The position numbers and the translations under genes are program-made. The notes beneath the pieces are model-generated. The model did not search any database, was not told where the DNA came from, and saw nothing but the letters and a program-made list of their open reading frames with translations. Shown here piece after piece: positions 9,210-30,640 of a stretch of 64,000 bases of DNA. The stretch's first letter is position 1; the number at the start of each line of letters is the position of its first letter. The DNA lies in assembly GCF_032393985.1 (NCBI RefSeq), contig NZ_CP135918.1, forward strand, positions 4,775,724-4,839,723, given 5' to 3'. Source of the DNA: Fischerella sp. JS2. GTDB lineage: Bacteria > Cyanobacteriota > Cyanobacteriia > Cyanobacteriales > Nostocaceae.

Positions 9210-10334
9210 ATGAAAACCCTGAAGTTTAAACTGTATCAGCACAAAAGAAATAGATTCCTCAAGCGCATGATTAACGCGAGTGGGATAATCTACAATCATT
9301 GTATTGCCCTACACAAACGCTACTATCGAATGTGGGGCAAACACTTAAGCTGTGCAAAACTTCAATCTCATATTGCCAAACTGCGGAAATGTAATCCATT
9401 TTGGCAAACAGTAGGTTCTCAATCAGTACAAGATATTTGTCAACGCATTGAGAAAGCCTACCAATTATTTTTTAAACACAACAAAAAAGGAGTTAGACCG
9501 CCAGGATTTAAAAAAGTTAAGAAATACAAATCATTCACTCTTAAACAATCTGGATACAAGTTTTTAGGTGGAAATCGAGTCAAGATTGGGAACAAAGTTT
9601 ATCAATTTTGGAAGTCGAGAGAGATAGAGGGAACAGTCAAAACCTTAACCATAAAACGCACTCCTTTAGGCGAGCTATTTATGATTATAGTTGTTGATGA
9701 TTGTTCTAATTCAAAAATCAAGTTTGCGACTGGTAGAATAGCGGGATTTGATTTTGGATTAAAAACATTCCTCACTTGCTCGGACGGAACAAAAATTGAG
9801 TCTCCCCAATTTTTAAAACAATCATTAAATGCCATTAGGAAAGCTAGCCGACAGCATTCTAAAAAACTCAAAGGTTCATCAAACAGAGAGCGATTTAGAA
9901 AAAATCTAGTTCGCAAATATGAGGATATTTCTCATCGTAGACGTGATTGGTTTTGGAAACTCGCTCATAAATTAACAGATAATTTTGATGTGCTTTGTTT
10001 TGAAACCTTAAATCTTAAAGGAATGCAACGTCTTTGGGGTAGGAAAATATCAGACTTGGCGAGGCGTGAATTTCTGCAAATTCTAGAATGGATTGCTAAG
10101 AAGAAGCATAAACAAGTAGTGTTTGTAGATCAATGGTATCCATCCACAAAAACTTGTTCTAGCTGTGGACACATTTTAGAAAAATTGGATTTGTCGATTA
10201 GACGCTGGCGTTGTCCTTCATGTCAATCTGAAAATGATAGAGATGAAAACGCCAGTCTTAATATTAAAAGAGTCGGGAGTTCGACTCTAGGCGTAGGAGA
10301 TGTTAGACAGTCTCAGACTGCAATCTCTGTTTGA
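9210..10334 (+). CDS. tnpB: TnpB, RNA-guided RuvC-like nuclease
   Basis: A 374-residue TnpB with all three RuvC acidic residues: D181 in AGFDFGLK, E265 in CFETLNLKG, D345 in ENDRDENAS, and a zinc ribbon C316-C319 / C335-C338. The N-terminal HTH/OrfB region (RMINASGIIYNHC) is present. TnpB proteins are ancestors of Cas12 and cut DNA guided by an omega-RNA transcribed from the 3' end of their own gene and the right end. No frame break is seen. Confidence 0.93.
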   Translation: MKTLKFKLYQHKRNRFLKRMINASGIIYNHCIALHKRYYRMWGKHLSCAKLQSHIAKLRKCNPFWQTVGSQSVQDICQRIEKAYQLFFKHNKKGVRPPGFKKVKKYKSFTLKQSGYKFLGGNRVKIGNKVYQFWKSREIEGTVKTLTIKRTPLGELFMIIVVDDCSNSKIKFATGRIAGFDFGLKTFLTCSDGTKIESPQFLKQSLNAIRKASRQHSKKLKGSSNRERFRKNLVRKYEDISHRRRDWFWKLAHKLTDNFDVLCFETLNLKGMQRLWGRKISDLARREFLQILEWIAKKKHKQVVFVDQWYPSTKTCSSCGHILEKLDLSIRRWRCPSCQSENDRDENASLNIKRVGSSTLGVGDVRQSQTAISV

Positions 10335-10374
10335 TGCCTGAATCCCCCGTTTTCAAAACGGGGGAGTGGCTCAA
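10230..10374 (+). ncRNA. predicted omega-RNA scaffold of TnpB (approximate limits)
   Basis: By analogy with characterised TnpB loci, the guide RNA scaffold covers the tnpB 3' end and the right end, here ending with the hairpin 10344-10364 and AGTGGCTCAA. The guide would be the flanking DNA starting at 10375 (ATTATTGCTAG). The 5' limit is a guess. Confidence 0.5.
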
Positions 10375-10590
10375 ATTATTGCTAGTTCGTCTGAATATCT
10401 TATACGACGAGTTCCTTTCAACTGGAAGCAAATAAGAAACGTATACCTCACCACGATTGCAATTTTTAGCGCGATAATTGGAGGAATATGGTTGATATAC
10501 CAATTTTCTGGTTCAAAATCTAACCAACCACAATCTTCTCAATCAAGTACTTATATCCGCCTAGAGTCGCGAACTACAAACATAAAGTAG
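10366..10590 (+). CDS. possible small membrane protein, start provided by or cut by the insertion sequence
   Basis: A 74-codon frame whose GTG start lies inside the right end of the insertion sequence. Downstream of the boundary it encodes RRVPFNWKQIRNVYLTTIAI and a single predicted membrane segment (AIFSAIIGGIWLIYQF), then a serine- and glutamine-rich tail. It may be the remnant of a longer gene interrupted at 10374, or noncoding. No family is recognised. Confidence 0.3.
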   Translation: MAQIIASSSEYLIRRVPFNWKQIRNVYLTTIAIFSAIIGGIWLIYQFSGSKSNQPQSSQSSTYIRLESRTTNIK

Positions 10591-18783: not shown

Positions 18784-18855
18784 GCGGGTGTAATTCAGTG
18801 GTAGAATGTCACCTTCCCAAGGTGAACGTCGTGGGTTCGAGTCCCATCACCCGCT
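18784..18855 (+). tRNA. tRNA-Gly (anticodon CCC)
   Basis: Acceptor stem GCGGGTG (18784-18790) pairs with CACCCGC (18848-18854), discriminator T, no encoded CCA. Anticodon stem TCACC/GGTGA with loop TTCCCAA gives CCC. T-arm GTGGG-TTCGAGT-CCCAT is regular. Confidence 0.93.
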
Positions 18856-19201: not shown

Positions 19202-20113
19202 ATGATTCAAACTACTCTGAACTTCAAACATCTTGAAAATCCAGTCATTCCAATATTTGCCAACCATGAAACTTTTCACCCTCGTTTTGGTTGGCTGAAA
19301 AAAGGATTTGATGCAGCTAAGAGAAATCCAGGTATTTTTTTACAAGATGATGCTCCTGTACGTTTAGGTGTTGGTAAAAATATGGTACGCGCTATTCGTT
19401 ATTGGTGTAGTGCATTCAAGATACTTGATAAAAATAATTCACCAACAATGTTTGGGGAAAAACTTTTAGGAAACAATGGATGGGACTGTTATTTAGAAGA
19501 TCCGGCATCATTATGGTTGTTACATTGGAATTTGTTAAAACCTACTTGTGAAGCGGCTGCTTGGTATTATATTTTTAATGTTTTTCGTGATTTAGATTTT
19601 ACCAAAGAAGATATTTTCGCAGGTCTGAAAGATTATATAAATAATTTCAACAAAACTATTGCTGACTCTTCTTTCATTAAAGATGTAAATTGTATTTTAA
19701 GAATGTATGCAGCACAAGATTTTCTTAGAGACAATACCCCCATTGAAGATTCTATTGATTGTCCTTTTAACGAACTTGGTTTGATTCGTCATTTTGGGAA
19801 AAATTATCAATTTAAAATTGGTACTAAGGCGAATTTACCAGCAGAAATTATAGTAGCTACTTGTTTAGAATACGCTAGTCGAGTCTGTCAGGGAAGAAAC
19901 ACAATTAATATTCCTAGTCTACTTTATGATGAAGGTAGTCCGGGGATGGTGTTTAAATTGACAGAAAATATTTTATGTGCAGCTATTGAGACGGTTGCTA
20001 GAAAATTTGATGCAATAGTTCTTTCTGATACTGCTGGCTTAATTCAGTTATCTTTACCTGATGAACCAGAGATTTTAGCTGACGAAATTTTAGAGCAATA
20101 TTATAATTCTTGA
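19202..20113 (+). CDS. sspB: DUF4007 protein, SspB-like DNA phosphorothioation component
   Basis: A 303-residue protein matching DUF4007 over its length: FANHETFHPRFGWLKKGFDA at the start, then VRLGVGKNMVRAIRYWCSAF, a central helical region and a C-terminal winged-helix-like part. DUF4007 proteins accompany DNA phosphorothioation genes; in the SspABCD system the DUF4007 member SspB is the DNA nickase. I chose ATG 19202 because the family begins close to this point; a TTG at 19148 would add 18 unlikely residues. No strong RBS is visible for either. The next gene begins 4 bp after its stop, a tight operon. Confidence 0.72.
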   Translation: MIQTTLNFKHLENPVIPIFANHETFHPRFGWLKKGFDAAKRNPGIFLQDDAPVRLGVGKNMVRAIRYWCSAFKILDKNNSPTMFGEKLLGNNGWDCYLEDPASLWLLHWNLLKPTCEAAAWYYIFNVFRDLDFTKEDIFAGLKDYINNFNKTIADSSFIKDVNCILRMYAAQDFLRDNTPIEDSIDCPFNELGLIRHFGKNYQFKIGTKANLPAEIIVATCLEYASRVCQGRNTINIPSLLYDEGSPGMVFKLTENILCAAIETVARKFDAIVLSDTAGLIQLSLPDEPEILADEILEQYYNS

Positions 20114-20117
20114 GCAA

Positions 20118-22349
20118 ATGAGTAAGATTATGACTAATCAAAAGCTATCCCATTATTTTAGTCTTCAGCGTCGCTATTCTCGTTCCATTAATTTAGAAAG
20201 AGATTTAGATAGTGTGGAAGCTTTAGAGGGTTATGTGCTGACTAAAAGAGCAATTGATTCTCTAGGACGTATTCTAACTAATTTTAATTCTGATGAAGGA
20301 AATAGAGCTTGGACATTAACTAGTGTTTATGGTACAGGGAAATCTGCTTTTGCTCATTATTTAATTTCTCTGGCTGCTAATTCACAAAATAGAATGCACA
20401 TTAAAGCTTTACCGATCGCTGAAGAGAAATTAGGTAGAGATAGTGAGATTTATCAATTAATTCAAGAGAAAATTAACCCAAAAGGATTAATTAGGGCTGT
20501 GGCTACGGGACAAAGAGAACCAATTAGCCATACCATTATTAGAGCTTTGTTAACAGGTGTTGATAATTTTTGGACTGCTAACCAAAGGAACAAAATTAAT
20601 GTTATCCGTCAGTTAGTAGATTTAGAAGCAGAAATTAATGATGGTGGAAAAGTTGATAGTAAAGAAATTCCTAATTTAGTATTAGAAGTTGCAAAGGAAT
20701 CTAAAAGTGGAATTTTCCTAGTTATTGATGAATTGGGTAAAAATTTAGAGTATGCTGCTCATGCTCAAGGTACTGAAGATTTATATGTTTTACAACAGTT
20801 AGCTGAATTACCAAAAAATAGTAAAACTCCTATTTATATTTTAGGTATTTTACATCAGGCATTTGCAGAATATAGTCAACGATTAGCAACTGTTCAACGC
20901 CATGAATGGGCAAAGATTCAGGGACGATTTGAGGATATTCCGTTTACAGAATCCTCTGGACAAATGATGGGTTTGATTGGACAAGCAATTGACTCTTCAG
21001 CAGCAGAAAATATAAGTTGTGCTATTAATAGTTACTCCCAGGAGTGGTGGCAATATTTAGAATCTACAATTGTAGACGAAGAAGTAACTGAGCAAGTGAT
21101 TAAAGAAGTTTACCCATTACATCCTTTATCTGCTTTAGTTTTACCTACTCTTTGTCAACGTTATGCTCAAAATGACCGTTCTTTATTTACATTTTTAACT
21201 AGTAGTGAACCTTTATCTTTTCGTAATTTCTTAGAAGAAGTCACGGTGAAAAATGATATTTTGCCAAGTCTGAAATTAGAGCGAGTTTATGACTATTTTA
21301 TTGAAGCCGCAGGAATGGGTTTAGCTTCTCGTCCTAATTTGCAAAGATGGGTAGAAATTCAAGATTTAATTAATGATGCTAAACGCTTAGAAGAAGATAG
21401 TCTCAAGGTACTAAAAACAATCGGAATTTTGAACTTAATTACGGTTACGGGTTCAATGAGGGCGACCATAACTTTAGTTTCGTTAGCTATGTGCGATCGC
21501 CCTTCAGCAGAACAGATTAATTATTGGCAACAAATTATTGATAAATTACTCAAGCAGAATTTAATTACTCATCGTCGTCAATTAGATGAATTGCGGATTT
21601 GGCAAGGTTCTGATTTTAATGTTGATGGTGAGTTAAGTACATATATAGAACAAGAGCGATCGCCTTTAGTTAAGCTATTATCTGTGCATCGTCCTCTGAA
21701 ACCTTTAGTCGCCCAACGTCACAGCTATCAAACTGGAACTTTACGTTATTTTGAACGCCATTATTTAGATAATTCCCAGGATTTAAGTCAGTTAAGTTGC
21801 AGTAGTGTAGATGCAGATGGTTTTGTCGGATATTGGGTAGATGATGAAGTTCCGAGTTCTGTTCCTGACACAACTAGTGATGGTAAACCATTGGTGATTT
21901 TGAGTGCGGCTAATTTAGATATTTTGCGAATTCGTACTCTGGAATTTGTGGCTTTAAATAATATCAAAAAAACCGCTAAAGAGTTACAAACTGATGGAGT
22001 AGCGAGAAAAGAGGTAAATTATCGCGCTAAAGAAGCTGAACAATTTTTAGATGAAACCCTCAATCAATCCTTTAGTATTGAGGAAAATCAGCAATGTTGG
22101 ATTCAAGGACAAATCGCAACACTCAACAATATTACTGATTTTAATAGTAAGCTTTCTGATATTTGCGATCGCGTTTATCATCGTAGTGCAATTTTGTGGA
22201 ATGAATTAATTAACCGTCGAGATTTAACCTCTCAAGGGGCGAAAGCAAGACGCGAATTAATTCAAGCAATGTTGGAACACCAATATGAAGAGAGATTGGG
22301 TTTAGAAGGTTATGGTCCGCGGAAGTTAGTATGTATTATTCCCTGTTAG
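20118..22349 (+). CDS. sspC: large P-loop ATPase, SspC/BrxC-like, N-terminal part
   Basis: A 743-residue product with a Walker A-like VYGTGKSAF (about 70-78; K75) and Walker B IFLVIDELGKNLE (D204, E205). Layout resembles the large ATPases of BREX (BrxC/PglY) and of SspC. Its last recognisable stretch EERLGLEGYGPRK is followed by an out-of-frame tail (LVCIIPC) and stop, while the next reading frame continues the expected family sequence (MYYSLLEETGIHR). The two therefore look like halves of one protein of about 1,170 residues. Alternatives: a split two-subunit version, with GGAAG five bases before the second ATG as its RBS, or a sequencing error. Confidence 0.72.
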   Translation: MSKIMTNQKLSHYFSLQRRYSRSINLERDLDSVEALEGYVLTKRAIDSLGRILTNFNSDEGNRAWTLTSVYGTGKSAFAHYLISLAANSQNRMHIKALPIAEEKLGRDSEIYQLIQEKINPKGLIRAVATGQREPISHTIIRALLTGVDNFWTANQRNKINVIRQLVDLEAEINDGGKVDSKEIPNLVLEVAKESKSGIFLVIDELGKNLEYAAHAQGTEDLYVLQQLAELPKNSKTPIYILGILHQAFAEYSQRLATVQRHEWAKIQGRFEDIPFTESSGQMMGLIGQAIDSSAAENISCAINSYSQEWWQYLESTIVDEEVTEQVIKEVYPLHPLSALVLPTLCQRYAQNDRSLFTFLTSSEPLSFRNFLEEVTVKNDILPSLKLERVYDYFIEAAGMGLASRPNLQRWVEIQDLINDAKRLEEDSLKVLKTIGILNLITVTGSMRATITLVSLAMCDRPSAEQINYWQQIIDKLLKQNLITHRRQLDELRIWQGSDFNVDGELSTYIEQERSPLVKLLSVHRPLKPLVAQRHSYQTGTLRYFERHYLDNSQDLSQLSCSSVDADGFVGYWVDDEVPSSVPDTTSDGKPLVILSAANLDILRIRTLEFVALNNIKKTAKELQTDGVARKEVNYRAKEAEQFLDETLNQSFSIEENQQCWIQGQIATLNNITDFNSKLSDICDRVYHRSAILWNELINRRDLTSQGAKARRELIQAMLEHQYEERLGLEGYGPRKLVCIIPC

Positions 22350-23638
22350 AAGAAACAGGGATTCATCGCCAGGAAGATGAAAATTGGGACTTTTATCCAC
22401 CATCTGAAAATTCGGGTTTGAATTCTCTGTGGGAAGCGGTGGAGAATTTTTGTTTAGCCGCCACAGAAAAAAGCCAAAGTTTTGATTTACTCTATCAATA
22501 TTTAGTAGCACCTCCCTATGGTGTGAAACAAGGTGCAGTTCCTGTAATTTTAGCGGCGGTATTGTTGTATCACGCTGATGATTTGGGGCTTTATCAAGAT
22601 GGAACATTTATTCCTGTATTGGGAACAGAACATTTTGAATTATTAGTAAAATATCCTGAACGATTTGCAGTTAAATATTTTGCAGTCGTCGGCTTAAGGG
22701 CGGAAGTATTCAAAGAATTAGAAGTTATTTTACGCAATCCGCAGATCAAAAAATTGGGGAAAGTGCGTAACGCTACTTTATTAACAGTGGTGACTCCGCT
22801 TTATCAATTTGTGAAAAAACTGCCGAAATATACTCAACAAACCCGACGGCTTGCAGATGAACCCAGAGCGATTTTAAAGGCGTTACAAACTACAGTTGAA
22901 CCGGATGAATTGTTGTTTAAAGCTTTACCAGCAGCTTGTAATTTACCTGCAATTGGGACTGAAACTGGGGATGATGGTGTGACGGCGAGAACTTTACGAA
23001 CTAAGTTAGTTCACGCCTTAAGAGACATTCATACAGCTTATGATCATTTATTAAGTGATTGCCAAAAACTGATTTATGAAGCCTTTGGTGTGAGAAGTCA
23101 AGAAACAAAACTGCGGGAAGATTTGCGAGTCAGGGCGAATTATTTAGCGGGAAAATGTATTGAACCTTTACTCAAACGCTTTATTCGTGCTGCATCGGAT
23201 GAAACCAAGAGTGATTCTCAGTGGTTGGAAGCTTTAGTGATGATTGTCGCAGATAAACCTGCTGAGTCGTGGACAGATGATGATGCAGTTGCATTTGAAA
23301 TGAAGTTAGCGGATTTGGTGCGACGGTTTAAGAATTTGGAAGCTTTGCAAAAGGAAGTCGCCGCCAAAGGGGAAGGTTTTGAAGCCCGACGAATTACCAT
23401 CACTCGTCCCGATGGTAATGATATCAATCGAATGGTATGGGTAGATCATAAAAGAGAGTCGCAAGTTGAGAAGATTGTTGACGAAATTTTAGCGAATTTA
23501 CCTGACGATCAGCAGTTAAGACAGGCGATTTTGGCAAAGTTAAGTGAAAGGATTTTAAGTTCTGATTTGCCAGAGACAGTTACGAAGATTGGGGACAAGG
23601 GAAATGATGAAAATATCAAGGGGAAAAAATTAGGTTAG
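22331..23638 (+). CDS. C-terminal part of the same SspC/BrxC-like ATPase, in a different frame
   Basis: A 435-residue frame overlapping the N-terminal part by 19 bases. It opens MYYSLLEETGIHRQEDENWD, which follows naturally on the previous frame's GYGPRK. The middle is helical (LPKYTQQTRRLADEPRAILK, LRTKLVHALRDIHTAYDHLL) and it ends with a charged tail. No separate catalytic motif is seen. It is read as the downstream half of a frameshifted gene, or as a separately translated subunit. Confidence 0.65.
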   Translation: MYYSLLEETGIHRQEDENWDFYPPSENSGLNSLWEAVENFCLAATEKSQSFDLLYQYLVAPPYGVKQGAVPVILAAVLLYHADDLGLYQDGTFIPVLGTEHFELLVKYPERFAVKYFAVVGLRAEVFKELEVILRNPQIKKLGKVRNATLLTVVTPLYQFVKKLPKYTQQTRRLADEPRAILKALQTTVEPDELLFKALPAACNLPAIGTETGDDGVTARTLRTKLVHALRDIHTAYDHLLSDCQKLIYEAFGVRSQETKLREDLRVRANYLAGKCIEPLLKRFIRAASDETKSDSQWLEALVMIVADKPAESWTDDDAVAFEMKLADLVRRFKNLEALQKEVAAKGEGFEARRITITRPDGNDINRMVWVDHKRESQVEKIVDEILANLPDDQQLRQAILAKLSERILSSDLPETVTKIGDKGNDENIKGKKLG

Positions 23639-23672
23639 AAGAAGCATTATTGTGTGGAAAGAGAACAAAATA

Positions 23673-23705
23673 AGATCCCCGACTTCTTAAAGAAGTCGGG
23701 GATCT
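23673..23705. repeat. palindromic repeat family B (AGATCCCCGACTT...AAGTCGGGGATCT), copy 1
   Basis: Near-perfect foldback AGATCCCCGACTTCTT/AAGAAGTCGGGGATCT. Other copies: 25241-25274, 39945-39977, 40231-40263. This copy could also terminate the ATPase transcript. Confidence 0.85.
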
Positions 23706-23729
23706 GAGCCTCTCAAATCTACTGATGAT

Positions 23730-24701
23730 TTATCCTTGTTGTTGATTTAACCAAGTTTCCAAATCAGCAACATTAGAAAAATCTAGTAATGCTTCCCCTA
23801 AATTCTCTAATTGTTCGATCGATAATTCTTGAATTTGCTCAATTAATGATTGATTAATTTCCCCAATACGGCGATTGAGTAGACGTATAACTAGACGTTG
23901 TTCTCCTTATTTATTTCCTTCCCATACAGCTTGTTCTCTATCTCGTTGATAAAGTGGTTCTAATCGCATAATTAACTCCCGATCGTCTGTTTCTAATTCT
24001 TGATTGACTCCTAAGTTTTCGCGCAAGTTGTAAACTAATTCGAGGGTTGCTTTCTGGTATGGATGATTTAATGGTAACGCTTGCAATTCGATAATTGCTT
24101 GTGACTGCACGCTTCCCCTACCCAAAAGCCTTAACCATAAAGTTTCTGGTGTTTGCGGTAGTTAGTGGATGGCGACAATTGCTGTCCGCAGTGCTTTAGG
24201 AAGAAAATGTACTCCGGATAACCAATCTGCTTTTTGCATAGTTCCAAAACTAGATAATCTAGTTTCGGATACCGTTGGAGTCAGAATCCACAACTTAGGA
24301 ATTTCTGAGTCCTGAAGTTTGGTTTTATTGGCTTTGGCTTCTCGTCGTAAGAAAGCTTTAACTTCTAATAATTTGAGAATACAGTCGCAGATTTCATCAC
24401 CAGAAGCTGGATTACGGAATGGTGAGCCAGCGACGGGAACGCAGGGGGTTTCCCCCATGAGCGACTGGCGAACCCGTAAGGGTTCTATTATTGCAGGATT
24501 TTCGGCAAATCTTCCTAGCAAACCCAGGATTTGTAAGTCAGAGTTTTGCTGTTTGTTAGATGTGAATAGAACATCTATTTCTTTAATTTCTCCTGAGACT
24601 TTTTCTGAGGCTTTGACTTCGCCGTAATTTTTTAGTAATTCTTCCAGATAGTCTTTGGCGAATTTATCATGGATAAAGCGCGTCACGTCGCTTTGCTCCA
24701 A
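23730..24701 (-). pseudogene. decayed DUF4351-tailed gene with two in-frame stop codons
   Basis: One continuous minus-strand frame interrupted by TAA at 24162-24164 and TAA at 23907-23909. Before the first stop it reads DKFAKDYLEELLKNYGEVKA ... KLWILTPTVSETRLSSFG; after it LPQTPETLWLRLLGRGSVQS; after the second GEQRLVIRLLNRRIGEINQS and the DUF4351-type ending IEQLENLGEALLDFSNVAD. The first stop fits CAA to TAA. Near 24420-24485 a foreign repeat has inserted in frame (RQSLMGETPCVPVAGSP). The family is common in cyanobacteria, function unproven (nuclease or transposase-like has been suggested for related groups). It splits the ssp genes. Confidence 0.8.
24420..24485. repeat. short dispersed repeat inserted within the decayed gene
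   Basis: GC-rich stretch with a foldback around GGGGGTTTCCCCC, disrupting the otherwise family-like protein NPAIIEP...FRNPASGDEI. It stays in frame. Confidence 0.6.
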
Positions 24702-24911
24702 ATTTAAAATTTTACCCTGAGCGTAGTCTAAGGGTCAAAATTCAAAATTAATCATCCTCTGAAATCCTGAGTTAGTGCGATCGCTTACGGAAGCACCTGA
24801 CTTTTTACGGGATCTGGAAAACCTCTCTCTAATTCTCTCTCCTGCGAGGCTACGGTGTACACAGAAGTCAGAAAAACTTGATTTAAATTGACTTGAAAAG
24901 CTTAGAATCAC

Positions 24912-24977
24912 AACCTCACCCCCAGCCCCTCTCCGAACTCGCAAAGAGGGGTGTTCGATAGGGCGGGGTGAGGTTTT
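24912..24977. repeat. dispersed hairpin repeat, copy 2 (CCTCACCCC...GGGGTGAGG)
   Basis: AACCTCACCCCCAGCCCCTC to GGGCGGGGTGAGGTTTT, related to the copy at 2664-2726. Confidence 0.75.
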
Positions 24978-25060
24978 TCATTATAAGTGATTAATCGAAA
25001 TCAAGATAAAATCTCATAAAATTCCGAAAATGGTAGATTTTAGTTAATTAAACGCTTTAA

Positions 25061-25160
25061 ATCAAGTTTTTTAAATTGTAATTCAACTTTTTGAGCCGTA
25101 AATCAAGTTTCTGAGTTGTAAACTAAGTTTCTGAGTCGGAAATCAAGTTTTTGAGTCGTA
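25061..25160. repeat. tandem array of five 20-bp units
   Basis: Exactly five units of 20 bp, consensus AATCAAGTTTCTGAGTCGTA with a few substitutions each, and no spacers. It lies in a 770-bp noncoding stretch (24720-25488) about 330 bp before the PP-loop ATPase gene. The remainder of that stretch holds two dispersed repeats and AT-rich promoter sequence. Not a CRISPR: no spacers. Confidence 0.85.
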
Positions 25161-25240
25161 AACCTGTTATTGTCCGAAAATTTGGCAACGCGATCGCAAA
25201 CAAATGAGATAGCGATACCTACAATAAGTTTGAGAGAAGC

Positions 25241-25274
25241 AGACCCCCGACTTTGTGAAAGTTGTCGGGGATCT
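25241..25274. repeat. palindromic repeat family B, copy 2
   Basis: AGACCCCCGACTTTGTGAAA then GTTGTCGGGGATCT; a slightly degraded copy of the 23673 palindrome. The two copies enclose the decayed gene and the 20-bp array. Confidence 0.8.
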
Positions 25275-25488
25275 TGTTTACGAATAATTTAGGAATGACT
25301 ATGTAAGTTTTAAGTAAGGTATAAAAGCGTAATTGCCCAGTTTATATAAGTTTATATAAATATAATGCTATCAGTAATTTTACGAAGTGCTTTTAACATT
25401 TGTATAAAAATGCTACACATTACTTTTTAAAATTTGCTAAGATACTAGCATTCTTAATATATTTGCCAAAAAGCACTAAGAAACAAGC

Positions 25489-26289
25489 ATGGCAGAGAGC
25501 AAAGTTAGACACATATTAGGACTTTCTGGGGGAAAGGATAGCACAGCTTTAGCGGTATTACTACATAAGGAAATTCCAGAGATGGAATATTTTTTTTGTG
25601 ATACCCATAAAGAATTACCGGAAACTTACGAATATCTTGACCGCATTAAAGCCCGTTTGGGGATTAAAATTCATTATCTCAGTGACAAACGAGGCTTTGA
25701 CCATTGGTTAGCGATTCATGATGGTTTATTACCTTCACCCCAAATGCGTTGGTGTACGGTGAAGATGAAAATTAAGCCTTTAGAGGATTTTGTGGGGGAT
25801 GATGAGGCTGTTAGTTACATTGGCATTCGTGCTGATGAAAATCGTGATGGTTATATTTCCACTAAACCTAATATTAAACCTGTGTTTCCGTTTAAGGAAA
25901 GGGGTTTAGTTAAGGCTGATATTATTCGGCTATTAGAAGATAGTGGAATTGGACTCCCTGACTATTATCGCTGGCGCAGTCGTTCTGGGTGTTTTTTCTG
26001 TTTCTTCCAACGCAAGTATGAATGGGTAATGTTAGCGCAGGAACATCCTGATTTATTTCAAAAGGCTGTTGAGTATGAATCAAATCATGCTGATGGTAGA
26101 ACCTATACTTGGACTGATGGGGAAAGTTTATTGCAGCTTCTAGAACGCAAGGATGAAATTATTGCTCCACATGAGAAGTTAATGGTTAAAGAGAAAAAGA
26201 CGGCTTTTAATCTTCATTTGGTTGAAGCATTAGAAGAAAGTTTAAATCAAGAAAAAGAAGATTTACCTTGTTTAGTTTGTCATTTATGA
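25489..26289 (+). CDS. sspD: PP-loop ATP pyrophosphatase / PAPS-reductase-like protein (SspD/DndC-like)
   Basis: A 266-residue protein with the PP-loop SGGKDST (13-19), the family strand YFFCDTHKELPETYEYL, and cysteines C89, C168, C171, plus a C-terminal C261-x2-C264 that could hold an iron-sulfur cluster. SspD and DndC activate the DNA backbone by adenylation so that sulfur from a cysteine desulfurase replaces a non-bridging oxygen. In known loci sspB, sspC and sspD are contiguous; here 1.85 kb of decayed DNA lies between sspC and this gene. The alternative is a PAPS reductase of sulfate assimilation, but the neighbours argue for DNA modification. Confidence 0.75.
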   Translation: MAESKVRHILGLSGGKDSTALAVLLHKEIPEMEYFFCDTHKELPETYEYLDRIKARLGIKIHYLSDKRGFDHWLAIHDGLLPSPQMRWCTVKMKIKPLEDFVGDDEAVSYIGIRADENRDGYISTKPNIKPVFPFKERGLVKADIIRLLEDSGIGLPDYYRWRSRSGCFFCFFQRKYEWVMLAQEHPDLFQKAVEYESNHADGRTYTWTDGESLLQLLERKDEIIAPHEKLMVKEKKTAFNLHLVEALEESLNQEKEDLPCLVCHL

Positions 26290-26376
26290 TTCTCACCAAT
26301 ATTAAATATTCTATTTTGATTATCAAGAGTTAGTGCGATCGCGCCCAACTCCTGTATCTTTTATTTTCTAAACTTG

Positions 26377-26598
26377 CTATCTAATCAATACACTCACTAC
26401 GTCGCCTGATTCACCTAAATTACCTGCTTTTACAGGTTTAGACCAAGAGCCTATTTCTGCATAACCTATGGTATGTAAAACGCAGATAGTCTTCCTCACT
26501 AAATTAGGACTACCAACTAATATATGTTTTATCTTTTCTCTACTTACCTGGACTTGATTGCTGCTGTCATCTTCTAATATCACAAATTCTTCTGCCAT
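26377..26598 (-). CDS. small hypothetical protein, 73 aa
   Basis: MAEEFVILEDDSSNQVQVSR followed by a helix and a C-terminal beta part (AGNLGESGDVVSVLIR). It has an ordered, non-repetitive composition and an ATG preceded by AGGTGA. No domain is recognised. It sits opposite-strand between the PP-loop gene and the HNH gene. Confidence 0.5.
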   Translation of the reverse strand: MAEEFVILEDDSSNQVQVSREKIKHILVGSPNLVRKTICVLHTIGYAEIGSWSKPVKAGNLGESGDVVSVLIR

Positions 26599-26702
26599 AA
26601 TTCACCTATTTAATATTGCAAAGTGGAATTAATACCTAAACCGTATGAGCATACAATTACTCAAAAACTTGGTTATACGCCAAACACTTATATAAGATTA
26701 CA

Positions 26703-26878
26703 AGTTCCAGTATTGAGAATTAAAACTAAAAACAGATTTAAGATCATGAACTTCAGAAGCCCAAGCAGTCAATCGAGATGAGATTCTATATCTAACTTCT
26801 GTATCATAAACTTCACCATATTTTTTTGAAAGTTCTTGAATTTTTTGATGAAGTTGCTCACGTACTTTTGGTAAAGAT
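26703..26878 (-). pseudogene. gene remnant, about 58 codons without a start
   Basis: A minus-strand frame reading VREQLHQKIQELSKKYGEVY and RISSRLTAWASEVHDLKS to a TAA. Its composition is protein-like, but a stop (TGA) lies just upstream and there is no start codon between. Likely the tail of a lost gene whose 5' part was replaced by the HNH gene. Confidence 0.4.
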
Positions 26879-26884
26879 CAAATT

Positions 26885-28015
26885 ATGAGTCAGGATTTAC
26901 CAAAGTCAAATAAAGTTAATGTTACAATATTATCTCAAATATTTAATAATATAACTAACTCTTATAAATATCTTTACTTTTTATCAATACTAGATATTAT
27001 AAAAAGAAGAAATTTTGATACTTTATCTCCTATCAGCTTTCGAGAAATCATTGTTGAGATGTTAGCTAATGCTTGGTATCCTCACAATTATTTTAAGCTG
27101 TCTTTTGGAAAACAAGACCAAATTGCCAATAAATTAGATATTCTTGAACTAGAAATTACAGAACCAATTTTAAAGTTTAGAGATACAGACAAAAAGCTTT
27201 TGCGTACAGCTATTAATAACCAAAATCTCGATGATATAGTTATTTCCATTAATCGCTATGTTTCTTATCGCTTAATTCGTCCTTTCTTTTCTCAAGAAAC
27301 GAGAGGCTTAAAAGATTACGATGTTAATTCTACTATTATTAATTTAGCTAACAATCAATTTGATACTAAAAAGTCTTTATATTGCTTTAATGCTGAAGAC
27401 CAGAAAAATTGTAACGCTATTATTTTACATCCCGATTGGATTCATTATTTAGAGGAAAATTACACAATAGTTAGGGGGTGGGCTTCTTGGGAATGGTTGA
27501 ATTATATGCAGCAGAGAAATCCCAGTACCCCTAATGTAGTTAATAAATTATTTATGCCACAAGAGAGAGATTCTCTAAGTAATCAAACTAAATATTGGAA
27601 GATTATTTTAGAACATCGAGATATTGAATGTATTTATTCTAAAATCAAATTAAATAAGAATGAAATTTCCTTAGATCATTATTTGCCTTGGTCTTTTGTG
27701 GCTCACGATCAATTATGGAATTTAATTCCGACTACAAAATCTGTTAATTCTTCTAAGTCTAATAATTTACCATCAGAAAAATATTTTGATGATTTTGTAA
27801 CATTACAGCATTTAGGCTTAACTATTTATAAGCAAAATGTTTCTCAAACAAAATGGTTGAATGATACTGAATCTTTTGTGGCAGAGTTGAAAGTTGAGCA
27901 ACCAGATGACTTATTAAATTTAGAAATTCTTATGAATGTTTATACAAAAACTATACAACCTTTGATTTCTTTAGCAACTCTCCAAGGTTTTAGCCCTGAA
28001 TGGATTTACACCTAA
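26885..28015 (+). CDS. HNH endonuclease in the phosphorothioation island
   Basis: A 376-residue protein. The C-terminal third carries an HNH fold: C249 in ECIYSKIKL, D264-H265 in SLDHYLPWS, N279 in LWNLIPTT and N288 in SVNSSKSNN. The N-terminal 240 residues have no known domain; they are helical, AT-rich in codon use, and contain aromatic patches (WYPHNYF, GWASWEWLNYMQ). In characterised Ssp systems the restriction partner SspE has an HNH-like DUF1524 domain with a DUF262 part; this protein has no DUF262. It could be a different sulfur-sensing or sulfur-blocked nuclease. Function is inferred from position and the HNH residues. Confidence 0.7.
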   Translation: MSQDLPKSNKVNVTILSQIFNNITNSYKYLYFLSILDIIKRRNFDTLSPISFREIIVEMLANAWYPHNYFKLSFGKQDQIANKLDILELEITEPILKFRDTDKKLLRTAINNQNLDDIVISINRYVSYRLIRPFFSQETRGLKDYDVNSTIINLANNQFDTKKSLYCFNAEDQKNCNAIILHPDWIHYLEENYTIVRGWASWEWLNYMQQRNPSTPNVVNKLFMPQERDSLSNQTKYWKIILEHRDIECIYSKIKLNKNEISLDHYLPWSFVAHDQLWNLIPTTKSVNSSKSNNLPSEKYFDDFVTLQHLGLTIYKQNVSQTKWLNDTESFVAELKVEQPDDLLNLEILMNVYTKTIQPLISLATLQGFSPEWIYT

Positions 28016-28047
28016 AATTCTTAATCTTGAATTTTGAATTTTGAATT

Positions 28048-28581
28048 TCTATTAGTATATAGTGAAGAACTATGCGAACAAGTTGTTACAGAATTTCAAA
28101 AAGCATGGGATAGTTTAGGTGATCGCACCCTCTCCACCTATCGCTTCTGGGGTAGCCATGAGTTAGATAACGCAAACAAGTTATCAAAGAAACTTTAAAA
28201 GAAGAGGGAGTGACCGAAGCCCAAGCAGAATTATTAGCAGCAACTACAGTAGATGATGGCTTAAAATATACCTTTGCACAAGCTCCTATTGATACCCCTG
28301 AATTCTTCACTGTTCAATCCAGAGGCGGAGCAATTATTGTTACATTGAATACCAATCACCCAGCTTATCAAAACTTAGTAGAAATCTTAGAAGAGGATGT
28401 AGATAAAGCCGATATAGATACCTTACGTTCACGTCTAGTTAATTCTTTAGATGGGTTAAAACTACTACTCATGGCATGGGCAAGATATGAAGATGAACTA
28501 GATGGTAAACGCAAAGAAAATGCTATAGATACTCGCATTGATTGGGGGAGAGTTGCCAGAAGATTTTTAGAGAATGAGTAG
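28048..28581 (+). pseudogene. frameshifted C-terminal fragment of a larger ATPase-like gene
   Basis: The first frame reads SEELCEQVVTEFQKAWDSLG ... FWGSHELDNA and stops at 28196-28198; the next frame picks up KQVIKETLKEEGVTEAQAEL and runs to RVARRFLENE at 28581. The junction near 28170-28175 is a one- or two-base frame change. The N-terminal domain is absent. The tail resembles C-terminal parts of histidine-kinase-type ATP-binding proteins in defence loci, but this is weak. From 28210 a GTG could restart translation of 123 residues. Confidence 0.55.
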
Positions 28582-28596
28582 CGAAGCGATAAAATA

Positions 28597-28731
28597 ATGC
28601 CTAATGAATCACAAGATGATCCATTTTTTGTAGAACTCTGTCAAGAATACACATCCTCGGAAATTGCTGAAATTGAACAATATTTAACCGACTGGGATAA
28701 AGCTAGTTATGTCAGCGTCGCCCATACATAA
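28597..28731 (+). CDS. 44-residue small ORF, possible remnant
   Basis: MPNESQDDPFFVELCQEYTS then SEIAEIEQYLTDWDKASYVS. Acidic, helix-like, ATG start, overlapping the next ORF by 23 bases. No family is recognised. Overlapping starts with the next frame suggest either a small operon or the broken pieces of one gene. Confidence 0.35.
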   Translation: MPNESQDDPFFVELCQEYTSSEIAEIEQYLTDWDKASYVSVAHT

Positions 28732-28945
28732 TATTTTAGATCATGCTGCTAGAAAAGAAATTGAGCTGTTAAAATTACTCCGCAAAGTACATAATTTTAA
28801 CAAAAAAGCAGCATTGAGAGTACCAAAAACAGGTTATCGTCAAGATGGTTCAGCCGTTTATCGTAAAGGCAATGAATATTTAATTGTTCGTCCAGATAAA
28901 TTTGGCATTGAAAAAATCGTCACCTATGGAGTTAACGATGACTAA
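28709..28945 (+). CDS. small hypothetical protein, 78 aa
   Basis: MSASPIHNILDHAARKEIEL, a basic middle (HNFNKKAALRVPKTGYRQDG) and GNEYLIVRPDKFGIEKIVTY. Compact alpha/beta composition suggests a real small protein. It overlaps the following frame by 8 bases. No domain name can be given. Confidence 0.4.
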   Translation: MSASPIHNILDHAARKEIELLKLLRKVHNFNKKAALRVPKTGYRQDGSAVYRKGNEYLIVRPDKFGIEKIVTYGVNDD

Positions 28946-29270
28946 TACCACGCTAACTAATCAAAATCCTGAACTAACTAAAAATTATATCATTCAACTA
29001 TTAGAGCAATTAACGATTGATTATCAAAATACTAAATCAGAACGACAAGCGATCGCTCATCAATCTTCTACATCTGAAGACGAATTTACGTTATTAGAAT
29101 AAATTGAACTATTAACTACACATATTCGGGGTTACGCTAGTCAAATCGAAGCCAGAGGTTATATAGAAAACCCAGATGAAGCAATCAAAGATTTACAACA
29201 CAAGCGAGTGTTTGATATTCCTAAGATTTCTCAATTTTTTTTAATAATTCTCATCAATACGAGAAGATAA
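28938..29270 (+). pseudogene. small gene broken by an in-frame TAA
   Basis: MTNTTLTNQNPELTKNYIIQ to DEFTLLE, then TAA at 29100-29102, then the same frame continues protein-like as IELLTTHIRGYASQIEARGY and NPDEAIKDLQHKRVFDIPK up to TAA at 29268. No homologue is recognised. Confidence 0.5.
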
Positions 29271-29352
29271 AATGTTACTTAAGAATGTTAGACTACTTAA
29301 GATTACTAATTTTAGAATATTTAAACTTTCAGTAAATCTTAAATTGTAGTGT

Positions 29353-29375
29353 CGAAGATTTTTAGAGAATGAATG
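29353..29375 (+). repeat. duplicate of the tail of the 28048-28581 gene
   Basis: GAAGATTTTTAGAGAATGA occurs here and at 28560-28578. In frame both encode RRFLENE then stop (or its equivalent), so the end of the fragmentary gene is present twice, 0.8 kb apart. Confidence 0.6.
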
Positions 29376-29482
29376 ATGAATAAATCTCACGTAGAGACGC
29401 ATAAATTTGAGAGAGTTTATATGATACTTCTCCGTGTTCCTCCGCGCTCACTTTGCGTCCCTCTGCGTTAAAAAATAAAAAA

Positions 29483-30640
29483 ATGACTACACAACAAAAG
29501 ATAATTTACCTCGATTACCACTCAACTACTCCCGTTGATCCGAGAGTAGCAGAAAAAGTCATGTACTACATGACTACTGCTTTTGGTAATGCCAGTAGTG
29601 TAGATCATAGTTACGGAGACAAAGCAACACAAGCAGTTAAACAAGCCCGTCAACAAATAGCCCAATTAATCAATGCTTCCCCAAAAGAAATTATCTTTAC
29701 ATCTGGTGCAACAGAAAGTATTAACTTAGCAATTCAAGGACATATTACTCAACAAAATACTCCCTCCAAAATCATTGTTTCCCCAGTTGAACACAAAGCC
29801 ATCCTAGATACCTGTCAAGCATTAGCTAAAAAAGGACTTGTAGAAATTATTTGGTTAAAAGTCAATAAACAAGCGCAGATTGATTTAGAATATTTAGAAA
29901 AAGTCTGCTCTAGTGGTGCTTCCTTACTTTGTGTCATGGCTGCTAGCAACGAAGTAGGGACAATTTACCCAATGCAAAAAATTGGCGCGATCGCTTCACA
30001 CTACTATATCCCTTTCTTATGTGATGCTTCCCAAGCAGTCGGTAAAATTCCCATCAACTTTCAAGACTGGGGTATTACCTATCTGGCTATTTCAGGACAT
30101 AAACTTTATGCACCCAAAGGAGTTGGTGCATTAGTAGTAAGACAAGGTTATCATCTTCAACCGATGATTTATGGTGGTGGACATCAACAGGGACTCAGAT
30201 CCGGTACACTCAATGTCCCTGGAATTGTTGGCTTGGGGGAAGCTTGTCAATTGAGACAATTGGAAATGTCAGCAGATGAAAGTGCGATCGCAATTTTGCG
30301 AGATCAACTGCAAAACTTGCTGCAAGCTCAAATTCCTGATTTAGTAGTGAATGGAGACTTAAATCACCGTTTATCAGGTAACTTACATATTTCTATCCCT
30401 GATATTCCCAATAGTGCCATAATTGCAAGAGTTCGTCATCAATTAGCTATTTCTGGTGGTGCTGCTTGTTCATCAGGTGTTGTTGCACCATCTCACGTTT
30501 TACAAGCGATGAATCTTTCGGAAAATATCATTGAAGGAGCTTTAAGAATTGGGATTGGCAAATTTACAAACACAGAAGAAATAGAAAAAGCATCCTCTGT
30601 GATCATCAGTGCAGTAAATAAAATTCATCAACTTTTCTAA
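29483..30640 (+). CDS. cysteine desulfurase (IscS/NifS fold; SspA/DndA-like role)
   Basis: A 385-residue PLP enzyme: substrate-end motif YLDYHSTTPVDPR, PLP contacts SGATESINLA, HKAILD and CDASQAVGK, the Schiff-base lysine K207 in ISGHKLYAPKG, and the sulfur-carrying cysteine C329 in ISGGAACSSG. It takes sulfur from cysteine as a persulfide. Lying at the end of the phosphorothioation island, it is the natural sulfur donor for the PP-loop enzyme; a housekeeping Fe-S or tRNA role is possible. ATG 29483 is chosen; the in-frame TTG at 29453 lies within a dispersed CTCCGTGTTCCTCCGCGCTC repeat. Confidence 0.88.
   Translation: MTTQQKIIYLDYHSTTPVDPRVAEKVMYYMTTAFGNASSVDHSYGDKATQAVKQARQQIAQLINASPKEIIFTSGATESINLAIQGHITQQNTPSKIIVSPVEHKAILDTCQALAKKGLVEIIWLKVNKQAQIDLEYLEKVCSSGASLLCVMAASNEVGTIYPMQKIGAIASHYYIPFLCDASQAVGKIPINFQDWGITYLAISGHKLYAPKGVGALVVRQGYHLQPMIYGGGHQQGLRSGTLNVPGIVGLGEACQLRQLEMSADESAIAILRDQLQNLLQAQIPDLVVNGDLNHRLSGNLHISIPDIPNSAIIARVRHQLAISGGAACSSGVVAPSHVLQAMNLSENIIEGALRIGIGKFTNTEEIEKASSVIISAVNKIHQLF

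Follow-up and report, generated by a model that had tools for sequence, protein, structure and literature searches.

We interpret the locus between positions 19,202 and 30,640 of a 64,000-nucleotide stretch of Fischerella sp. JS2 DNA (the window) as a partly decayed SspABCD-type single-strand phosphorothioation (PT) island. Its nuclease would belong to an HNH family that is linked to PT loci and distinct from SspE and DndI, and by published description also from SspFGH; the family appears to be Ssp-linked, yet not strictly PT-dependent. We put the probability of this reading at about 0.55. The nuclease family is little noticed and, judged by its sequences, stays intact in many cyanobacteria after loss of the sulfur-adding genes; we found no account of it with Ssp in the open-access literature. 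Restriction genes are usually expected to be lost before modification genes. Persistence of the nuclease beyond its modification module would turn this order around.

Gene content and decay of the island

The window lies within a single-contig genome of 7.02 Mb, and the features of the island are listed in Table 1. An earlier note, made from the letters alone, had placed a DUF4007 gene, a P-loop ATPase, a PP-loop ATP pyrophosphatase, a cysteine desulfurase and an HNH gene on one strand and had taken them for an SspBCD-A-like island. Pfam and PADLOC recovered all five gene types at these places on the forward strand, and the HMM search named the families SspB, SspC, SspD, and SspA/DndA, each called at E ≤ 1e-100 with PADLOC models. 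The SspA and DndA models tie for the cysteine desulfurase, so the two are not told apart; its start is likely the ATG at 29483. In SspD, the PP-loop SGGKDS and the paired cysteines are invariant in nine aligned sequences. The SspB, SspD, SspA, and HNH reading frames are intact, with dN/dS values against relatives of 0.11 to 0.23 (Nei-Gojobori method, as throughout); for the HNH gene, the values against L063, L100, and L115 are 0.116, 0.113, and 0.196, respectively.

Table 1. Positions of the island's features in the window and of the LAGLIDADG_2 genes in four other loci.
Feature	Positions	Strand	Evidence
tRNA-Gly (CCC), left flank of the island	18784..18855	+	ARAGORN
sspB (DUF4007)	19202..20113	+	PADLOC SspB 1.6e-125; Pfam DUF4007 1.8e-101
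sspC, N-terminal part (P-loop ATPase)	20118..22349	+	PADLOC SspC model ~1-716 (to 735)
sspC, C-terminal part, other frame	22331..23638	+	PADLOC SspC model 719-1104
DUF4351 gene, broken	23730..24734	-	310-aa relative in L063 is intact
sspD (PP-loop ATP pyrophosphatase/PAPS reductase-like), intact	25489..26289	+	PADLOC SspD 1.5e-112; Pfam PAPS_reduct 3.7e-14
Site of the HTH part and operator in L063; non-aligning sequence here	26618..26881	+	L063 alignment ends at 26617, restarts at 26882
HNH nuclease, 376-aa HTH-less form, catalytic motif intact	26885..28015	+	Pfam HNH_4 4.8e-11
SF2 helicase scrap	28031..28198	+	profile 190-232 of 540
GHKL/HATPase_c_3 ATPase scrap	28171..28581	+	profile 480-616 of 616
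Small island gene, two frames here; 114 aa in L063	28582..28945	+	
Small island gene, three pieces here; 132 aa in L063	28884..29335	+	
sspA/dndA-type cysteine desulfurase, intact	29453..30640	+	PADLOC DndA 1.1e-142, SspA 9.2e-142
LAGLIDADG_2 gene	L112 8945-9901; L114 8954-9910; L126 8170-9147; L180 (pSYSM) 9432-10388		

The earlier note rightly took the ATPase for SspC-like, but at 20118-23638 it is not a single reading frame: the full length of the model is covered by two frames that break at about 22,330 rather than by one intact protein. In the relatives L063, L064, L065, L070, L071, L080, L083, L085, and L086, sspC is a single ORF of 1168-1182 aa (1171-1172 aa in L063, L065, and L070). 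The second ORF in the window begins at a Met that is found at the same place in the relatives compared. SspC in two pieces may still work, since the linker at the split is also split or enlarged in L148 and L168-L171, which carry both HNH and sspD. Splits near model positions 735-787 occur likewise in the sspD- and HNH-bearing G343, G500, G526, and G311, of which the first three are one family and perhaps one event, and the last has the coordinates of L148. A programmed frameshift was considered and set aside; the break coincides with this linker.

Neither the sspC split nor the remains at 28031-29335 (SF2 helicase, GHKL ATPase, and two small genes) featured in the earlier note. Judged by these two features and the broken DUF4351 gene, the window's SspABCD-type island is partly decayed. 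In some relatives, the helicase and the GHKL ATPase lie whole between sspD and sspA, and the window keeps scraps only. Several Nostocaceae islands have a DUF4351 gene on the opposite strand that separates sspC from sspD or from HNH, namely L063 (7272-8204; among these relatives, the one assigned by Pfam), L068, L071, L077, L083, L085, and L086.

The intact frames and their dN/dS values, the shared Met, the similar splits, and the full ssp and HNH sets known elsewhere speak for a live PT restriction-modification system, in which two polypeptides would together do the work of SspC and the HNH protein would be gated by PT as an effector, in the manner of SspE or DndI. Against this, several further genes of the island survive only as scraps, the HTH and operator are lost, and no DUF262-type, SRA, or sulfur-binding domain was found in the HNH protein. 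With the distribution of SspD described below, we consider this possibility unlikely, if worth serious weight. The proposal in the earlier note that the genes form one system finds support in full sets in other genomes, but for the window copy the split sspC and the reduced neighbours weaken the case for one working PT restriction-modification unit.

Islands with sspD and without an island HNH gene begin in the order sspB-sspC-sspD. After sspD, L068, L070, and L071 have a GIY-YIG-like protein and a 751-aa DGQHR/DndB-like protein, and L072 has a 446-aa DndB-like protein instead; then follow an SF2 helicase, an HATPase_c_3 protein, one or two small genes, and sspA, where the stretch reaches that far. 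In L073, L075, and L076, too, sspD is followed by a GIY-YIG-like protein and then by a long protein of the DGQHR/DndB-like kind, and the two are an uncharacterised candidate effector pair; L075 also carries a true SspE. We rejected the idea that the HNH gene and this pair are exclusive alternatives, as L170 has both.

Elsewhere in the window's genome, at 2.87 Mb (L179, 8757-17104), a second DUF4007-like gene is followed by genes of 181 aa, 1542 aa, and 725 aa, the last PglZ-like below the cut-off; from its sequence, this module looks BREX-like. Genes similar to this second DUF4007 gene (DUF4007b) come after ssp genes in L074, L132, L117, L150, and L172-L176.

The HNH family and its neighbours

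Pfam finds only HNH_4 in the HNH protein, to which the long form adds HTH domains; an N-terminal helical region is without known match. The HNH motif is Cas9-like and invariant in alignments of 22-26 members, and D264, H265, N279, N288, and K291 (window numbering) are invariant in 26 aligned sequences. PADLOC and NCBIfam give weak matches, Cas9 first, and plasmid copies carry the PGAP-type name 'HNH endonuclease domain-containing protein'. AlphaFold models of two HNH proteins have mean pLDDT values of 82 and 87. In Foldseek searches with two HNH models, the region before the HNH domain had no confident match (best E of any match 0.03-0.1), and the HTH-less protein had no confident match in the PDB. 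Among viral contigs, none of 27 candidates was close HNH kin, and a phage search returned one distant match with 23% identity.

In 34 of the 68 HNH loci, the protein begins with an XRE HTH some 85 aa long; this HTH resembles the restriction-modification controllers C.BclI and C.Esp1396I (Foldseek probability 1.00, TMt ~0.7, but E ~0.2). The palindrome TTATCA-N4-TGATAA lies at most 250 nt upstream of 17 of these 34 genes and of none of the 34 others, with 20 occurrences in a total of 1.09 Mb of HNH loci. Its strict form is absent in half of the HTH forms, which counts against our preferred reading. The window copy has lost the HTH, and in place of this segment stands DNA with no alignment to L063.

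The 68 HNH loci come from a scan of named genomes, and all have a profile match, partial in some; 67 are cyanobacterial by title and one is from the Bacteroidia. Some were retrieved twice (e.g., L173 is L150, and L177 is L128), and L119 and L120 belong to the same strain, on two of its contigs. In the retrieved DNA, 35 loci have SspB, SspC, or SspD fragments, 19 have an SspA-like gene only, and 14 have none of these. Cysteine desulfurases are common, so SspA alone points only weakly to a former ssp island, and both of the latter groups tell against the preferred reading. Full ssp sets with HNH are found in L063, L115, L175, and the Hymenobacter plasmid L185, so that PT-gated action may be the normal state, again contrary to our interpretation. 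The order in L175 is sspB-sspC-sspD-DUF4007b-XRE-HNH-sspA, and the HNH gene sits between ssp genes in L168 and L063 as well. The earlier note had called for a comparison with other cyanobacterial ssp loci; the gene set is indeed found again in other genomes, L175 being an example of a full one, and its arrangement in the window is therefore not due to chance. In L150 (11174-15379, the same as L173 37-4242), McrBC-like AAA_5 and PDDEXK_7 genes lie between HNH and sspA.

Plasmid pSYSM of Synechocystis PCC 6803 carries sspB, a 563-aa sspC, an HTH-HNH gene, sspA, and a gene for a PT-associated methyltransferase. The 23-kb stretch examined gave no SspD match, and an integrase is annotated about 5 kb upstream of HNH. 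Presence in this model strain makes the role of the nuclease testable. In pSYSM and three other loci (Table 1), sspC is shortened and is separated from the HTH-HNH gene by an opposite-strand LAGLIDADG_2 endonuclease gene; it looks as though the end of sspC had given way to a homing-type gene.

We also searched 295 genomes from the class of the Bacteroidia locus. The HNH profile matches in 22; in 13 of these the match spans 370 or more of the 457 positions, with stops in some, and 12 of the 13 loci were retrieved. L207 has sspA, sspB, and sspC with HNH, but its stretch shows no SspD; it is therefore not a full set, which counts against our reading. The HNH gene lies near dndC, dndD-like, and dptF genes in L208 and 3 bp after an SspD-like gene in L209. 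It adjoins a methyltransferase-HIT protein in L206, L209-L212, and L215 (two by NCBIfam, four by eye) and a HIT-like protein in L213, L216, and L217 (by eye); among these nine loci, an SspD-like gene is found in L209 only. L214 has no ssp, dnd, methyltransferase-HIT, or HIT-like neighbour. The methyltransferase-HIT protein has 245-291 aa, with an N-terminus like the PT-associated methyltransferase TIGR04096 and a HIT-like C-terminus (L206 and L210 tested, others by eye).

These Bacteroidota loci, mostly without ssp, and the selection on orphan HNH genes described below are what one would expect if HNH were an unrelated defence gene hitch-hiking in ssp islands, with no functional tie to them. 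We regard this as quite improbable, given that the gene is associated with PT genes in members of two phyla (ssp in L185 and L207, dndC with dndD-like and dptF in L208, SspD-like in L209) and is placed between ssp genes in L175, L168, and L063.

Nuclease genes in genomes without modification genes

We counted modification genes in two samples of genomes. The family sample holds 145 genomes, with a near-full HNH in 30, a near-full SspD in 12, and an SspC of at least 700 aa in 20. Intact SspD is found in 5 of the 30 near-full HNH genomes. Given an SspC of at least 700 aa, it is found in 3 of 12 genomes with an island HNH and in 8 of 8 without (Fisher p 0.0014; the genomes are related, so this and the following p values overstate independence). 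SspD of at least 200 aa is present in 10 of 49 named HNH genomes. That near-full SspD is missing in 25 of 30 and 39 of 49 HNH genomes, respectively, argues against the live restriction-modification system considered above.

The class sample comprises 388 genomes, and an SspC match of some kind is present in 75. Among 34 near-full HNH genomes (a few with internal stops), 12 have no SspC match, and 5 have both full SspC and intact SspD. In the samples searched, the nuclease is commoner without the full pair, and this distribution does not favour the use of a PT mark by the nuclease, as the earlier note had supposed. Among the 75 genomes with an SspC match, full SspC and intact SspD occur together in 5 of 18 with HNH nearby versus 32 of 53 without HNH (p 0.028), or in 5 of 17 versus 32 of 47 when matches below 250 aa are left out (p 0.009); these tests leave out four genomes with HNH elsewhere, and contig ends may account for some of the partial matches. 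Given full SspC, however, SspD is present in 5 of 7 with HNH and 32 of 35 without (p 0.19), a difference that is not significant class-wide and so weakens our reading.

A further search covered 39 chosen genomes: 30 in which no full SspC lies nearby, and nine that lack sspD but have a full or long SspC. Of the 39, 22 have no SspC match. On a quick HNH tree of 55 rows, the sspD state (12 rows with, 41 without) changes at least 10 times; rows with internal stops or partial HNH were excluded from the tree and from dN/dS. The combination sspB-sspC-HNH without sspD recurs in L103, L106, L108, L109, L114, L117, L133, and L146, with SspC shortened in L114 and L146, and no SspD match was found in the whole genome of any of the eight.

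The median dN/dS for SspB and SspC is 0.145 and 0.143, respectively, in eight sspD-less HNH loci (L077, L085, L086, L100, L103, L106, L108, and L109, two of which hold SspD scraps), close to the 0.162 and 0.114 in sspD-bearing loci without HNH. For HNH pairs from genomes with no SspC match, dN/dS is 0.072 for L143/L144 (dS 0.56), 0.194 for L122/L123 (dS 0.59), and 0.184 for L091/L092 (dS 0.44), low values that may record selection before recent ssp loss. The pair L099/L069 (0.218) is not clean, as the L069 genome has SspC and SspD elsewhere. Selection on the nuclease gene in genomes without sspD or an SspC match suggests that the HNH nuclease probably needs no PT marks to act and spares unmarked host DNA at its normal level.

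The rarity of full SspC and SspD in HNH-bearing ssp loci (5 of 18 versus 32 of 53) could also mean that HNH is a PT antagonist, type IV-like or insertional. By cutting PT DNA or by pushing out ssp genes, it would cause ssp to decay where HNH lands. In 11 of 28 HNH loci (printed or pattern-matched; the window is not among them), helicase sequence truncated at about aa 180 begins no more than 40 nt after the HNH stop. These loci share this junction, and further deletions vary among loci (by eye). Junctions with truncated SF2, HATPase, or SspA lie tens of bp from the HNH stop in several loci (by eye) and, like the LAGLIDADG genes between shortened sspC and HNH in four loci, would agree with antagonism. 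On the other side, sspB, sspC, sspD, and sspA are intact beside HNH in L063, L115, L175, and L185, and HNH remains under selection after ssp loss, with nothing left to antagonise. We think antagonism very unlikely.

In our preferred reading, SspA and SspD would supply and activate sulfur, SspB and SspC would select the site and open it, and invading DNA would be cut or nicked by the HNH protein. In the fused form, the C-protein-like HTH, acting on the palindrome ahead of its own gene, probably keeps the nuclease low. As a tentative extension, which we hold possible but would not favour, SspB, SspC, and HTH-HNH (often with SspA) may provide defence without sulfur addition, with the lone nuclease as the last protective remnant; the recurrent sspB-sspC-HNH loci without sspD and the similarity of SspB and SspC dN/dS in the eight sspD-less HNH loci measured above to that of sspD-bearing loci are offered in its support.

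Comparison with known systems

The restriction-modification controller (C) proteins, such as C.BclI and C.AhdI among the Foldseek matches, share the XRE fold with the HTH domain. C proteins have an upstream palindrome. Unlike in these proteins, the HTH is here fused to the nuclease itself. With Cas9 and IscB, the likeness is confined to the HNH part, which matches Cas9 models and chains; no RuvC domain was found by Pfam, and a functional relationship to Cas9 or IscB was set aside.

SspABCD-SspE (PMC9646914, PMC7188994) has in common with the window the SspA, SspB, SspC, and SspD families, SspB being described as a nickase needed for PT formation (PMC7188994), and an HNH-fold nuclease in the locus. 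SspE consists of DUF262 (DGQQR) and DUF1524 (PMC9646914, PMC7188994), whereas the window's family has HNH_4, an N-terminal helical region, and often an XRE HTH. Pfam, PADLOC, and NCBIfam gave no DUF262/GmrSD_N with DGQQR, no GmrSD_C, and no SspE match in the HNH protein, and comparison of the HNH and SspE profiles (hhalign) gave a probability of 1.4; SspE was ruled out as its identity, in agreement with the different HNH protein seen in the earlier note. The SspE model PDLC02789, the one model tried, had no match in the window's genome. IscS-DndBCDE-DndI (PMC11662687) likewise combines PT modification with an HNH nuclease, but DndI is DUF262 plus DUF1524 and the HNH protein is without DUF262. 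The wHTH/SBD-SRA-HNH (ScoMcrA) type (PMC10853773) resembles our loci in that an HNH nuclease encoded within a PT locus carries an additional domain for DNA binding. That type has SRA and SBD, whereas the HNH family has an XRE/Cro HTH, absent in many members, and no SRA or sulfur-binding domain by Pfam.

SspE is active only with PT (PMC9646914), DndI harms PT-less cells (PMC11662687), and SspFGH is toxic without PT (PMC8092258). A PT-less nuclease under selection would fit these precedents only if tightly held down; for the fused form, HTH and palindrome point to control of this kind. SspABCD-SspFGH (PMC8092258) shares SspBCD and a partner other than SspE with the loci studied here. A Walker A motif is described for SspF and an FtsK-like end for SspH; Pfam finds neither in the HNH protein, and this separation follows the published description. 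Of the seven island proteins run against PADLOC, none received the name SspF, SspG, or SspH. In contrast to the toxicity of SspFGH, the HNH family persists without PT genes. A survey of 2,678 sspBCD strains counted 196 with SspFGH, 199 with SspE, and a further 36 with the two together, leaving about 84% with neither (PMC8092258). The HNH family is a candidate restriction partner for sspBCD loci without SspE or SspFGH, in cyanobacteria and in some Bacteroidota.
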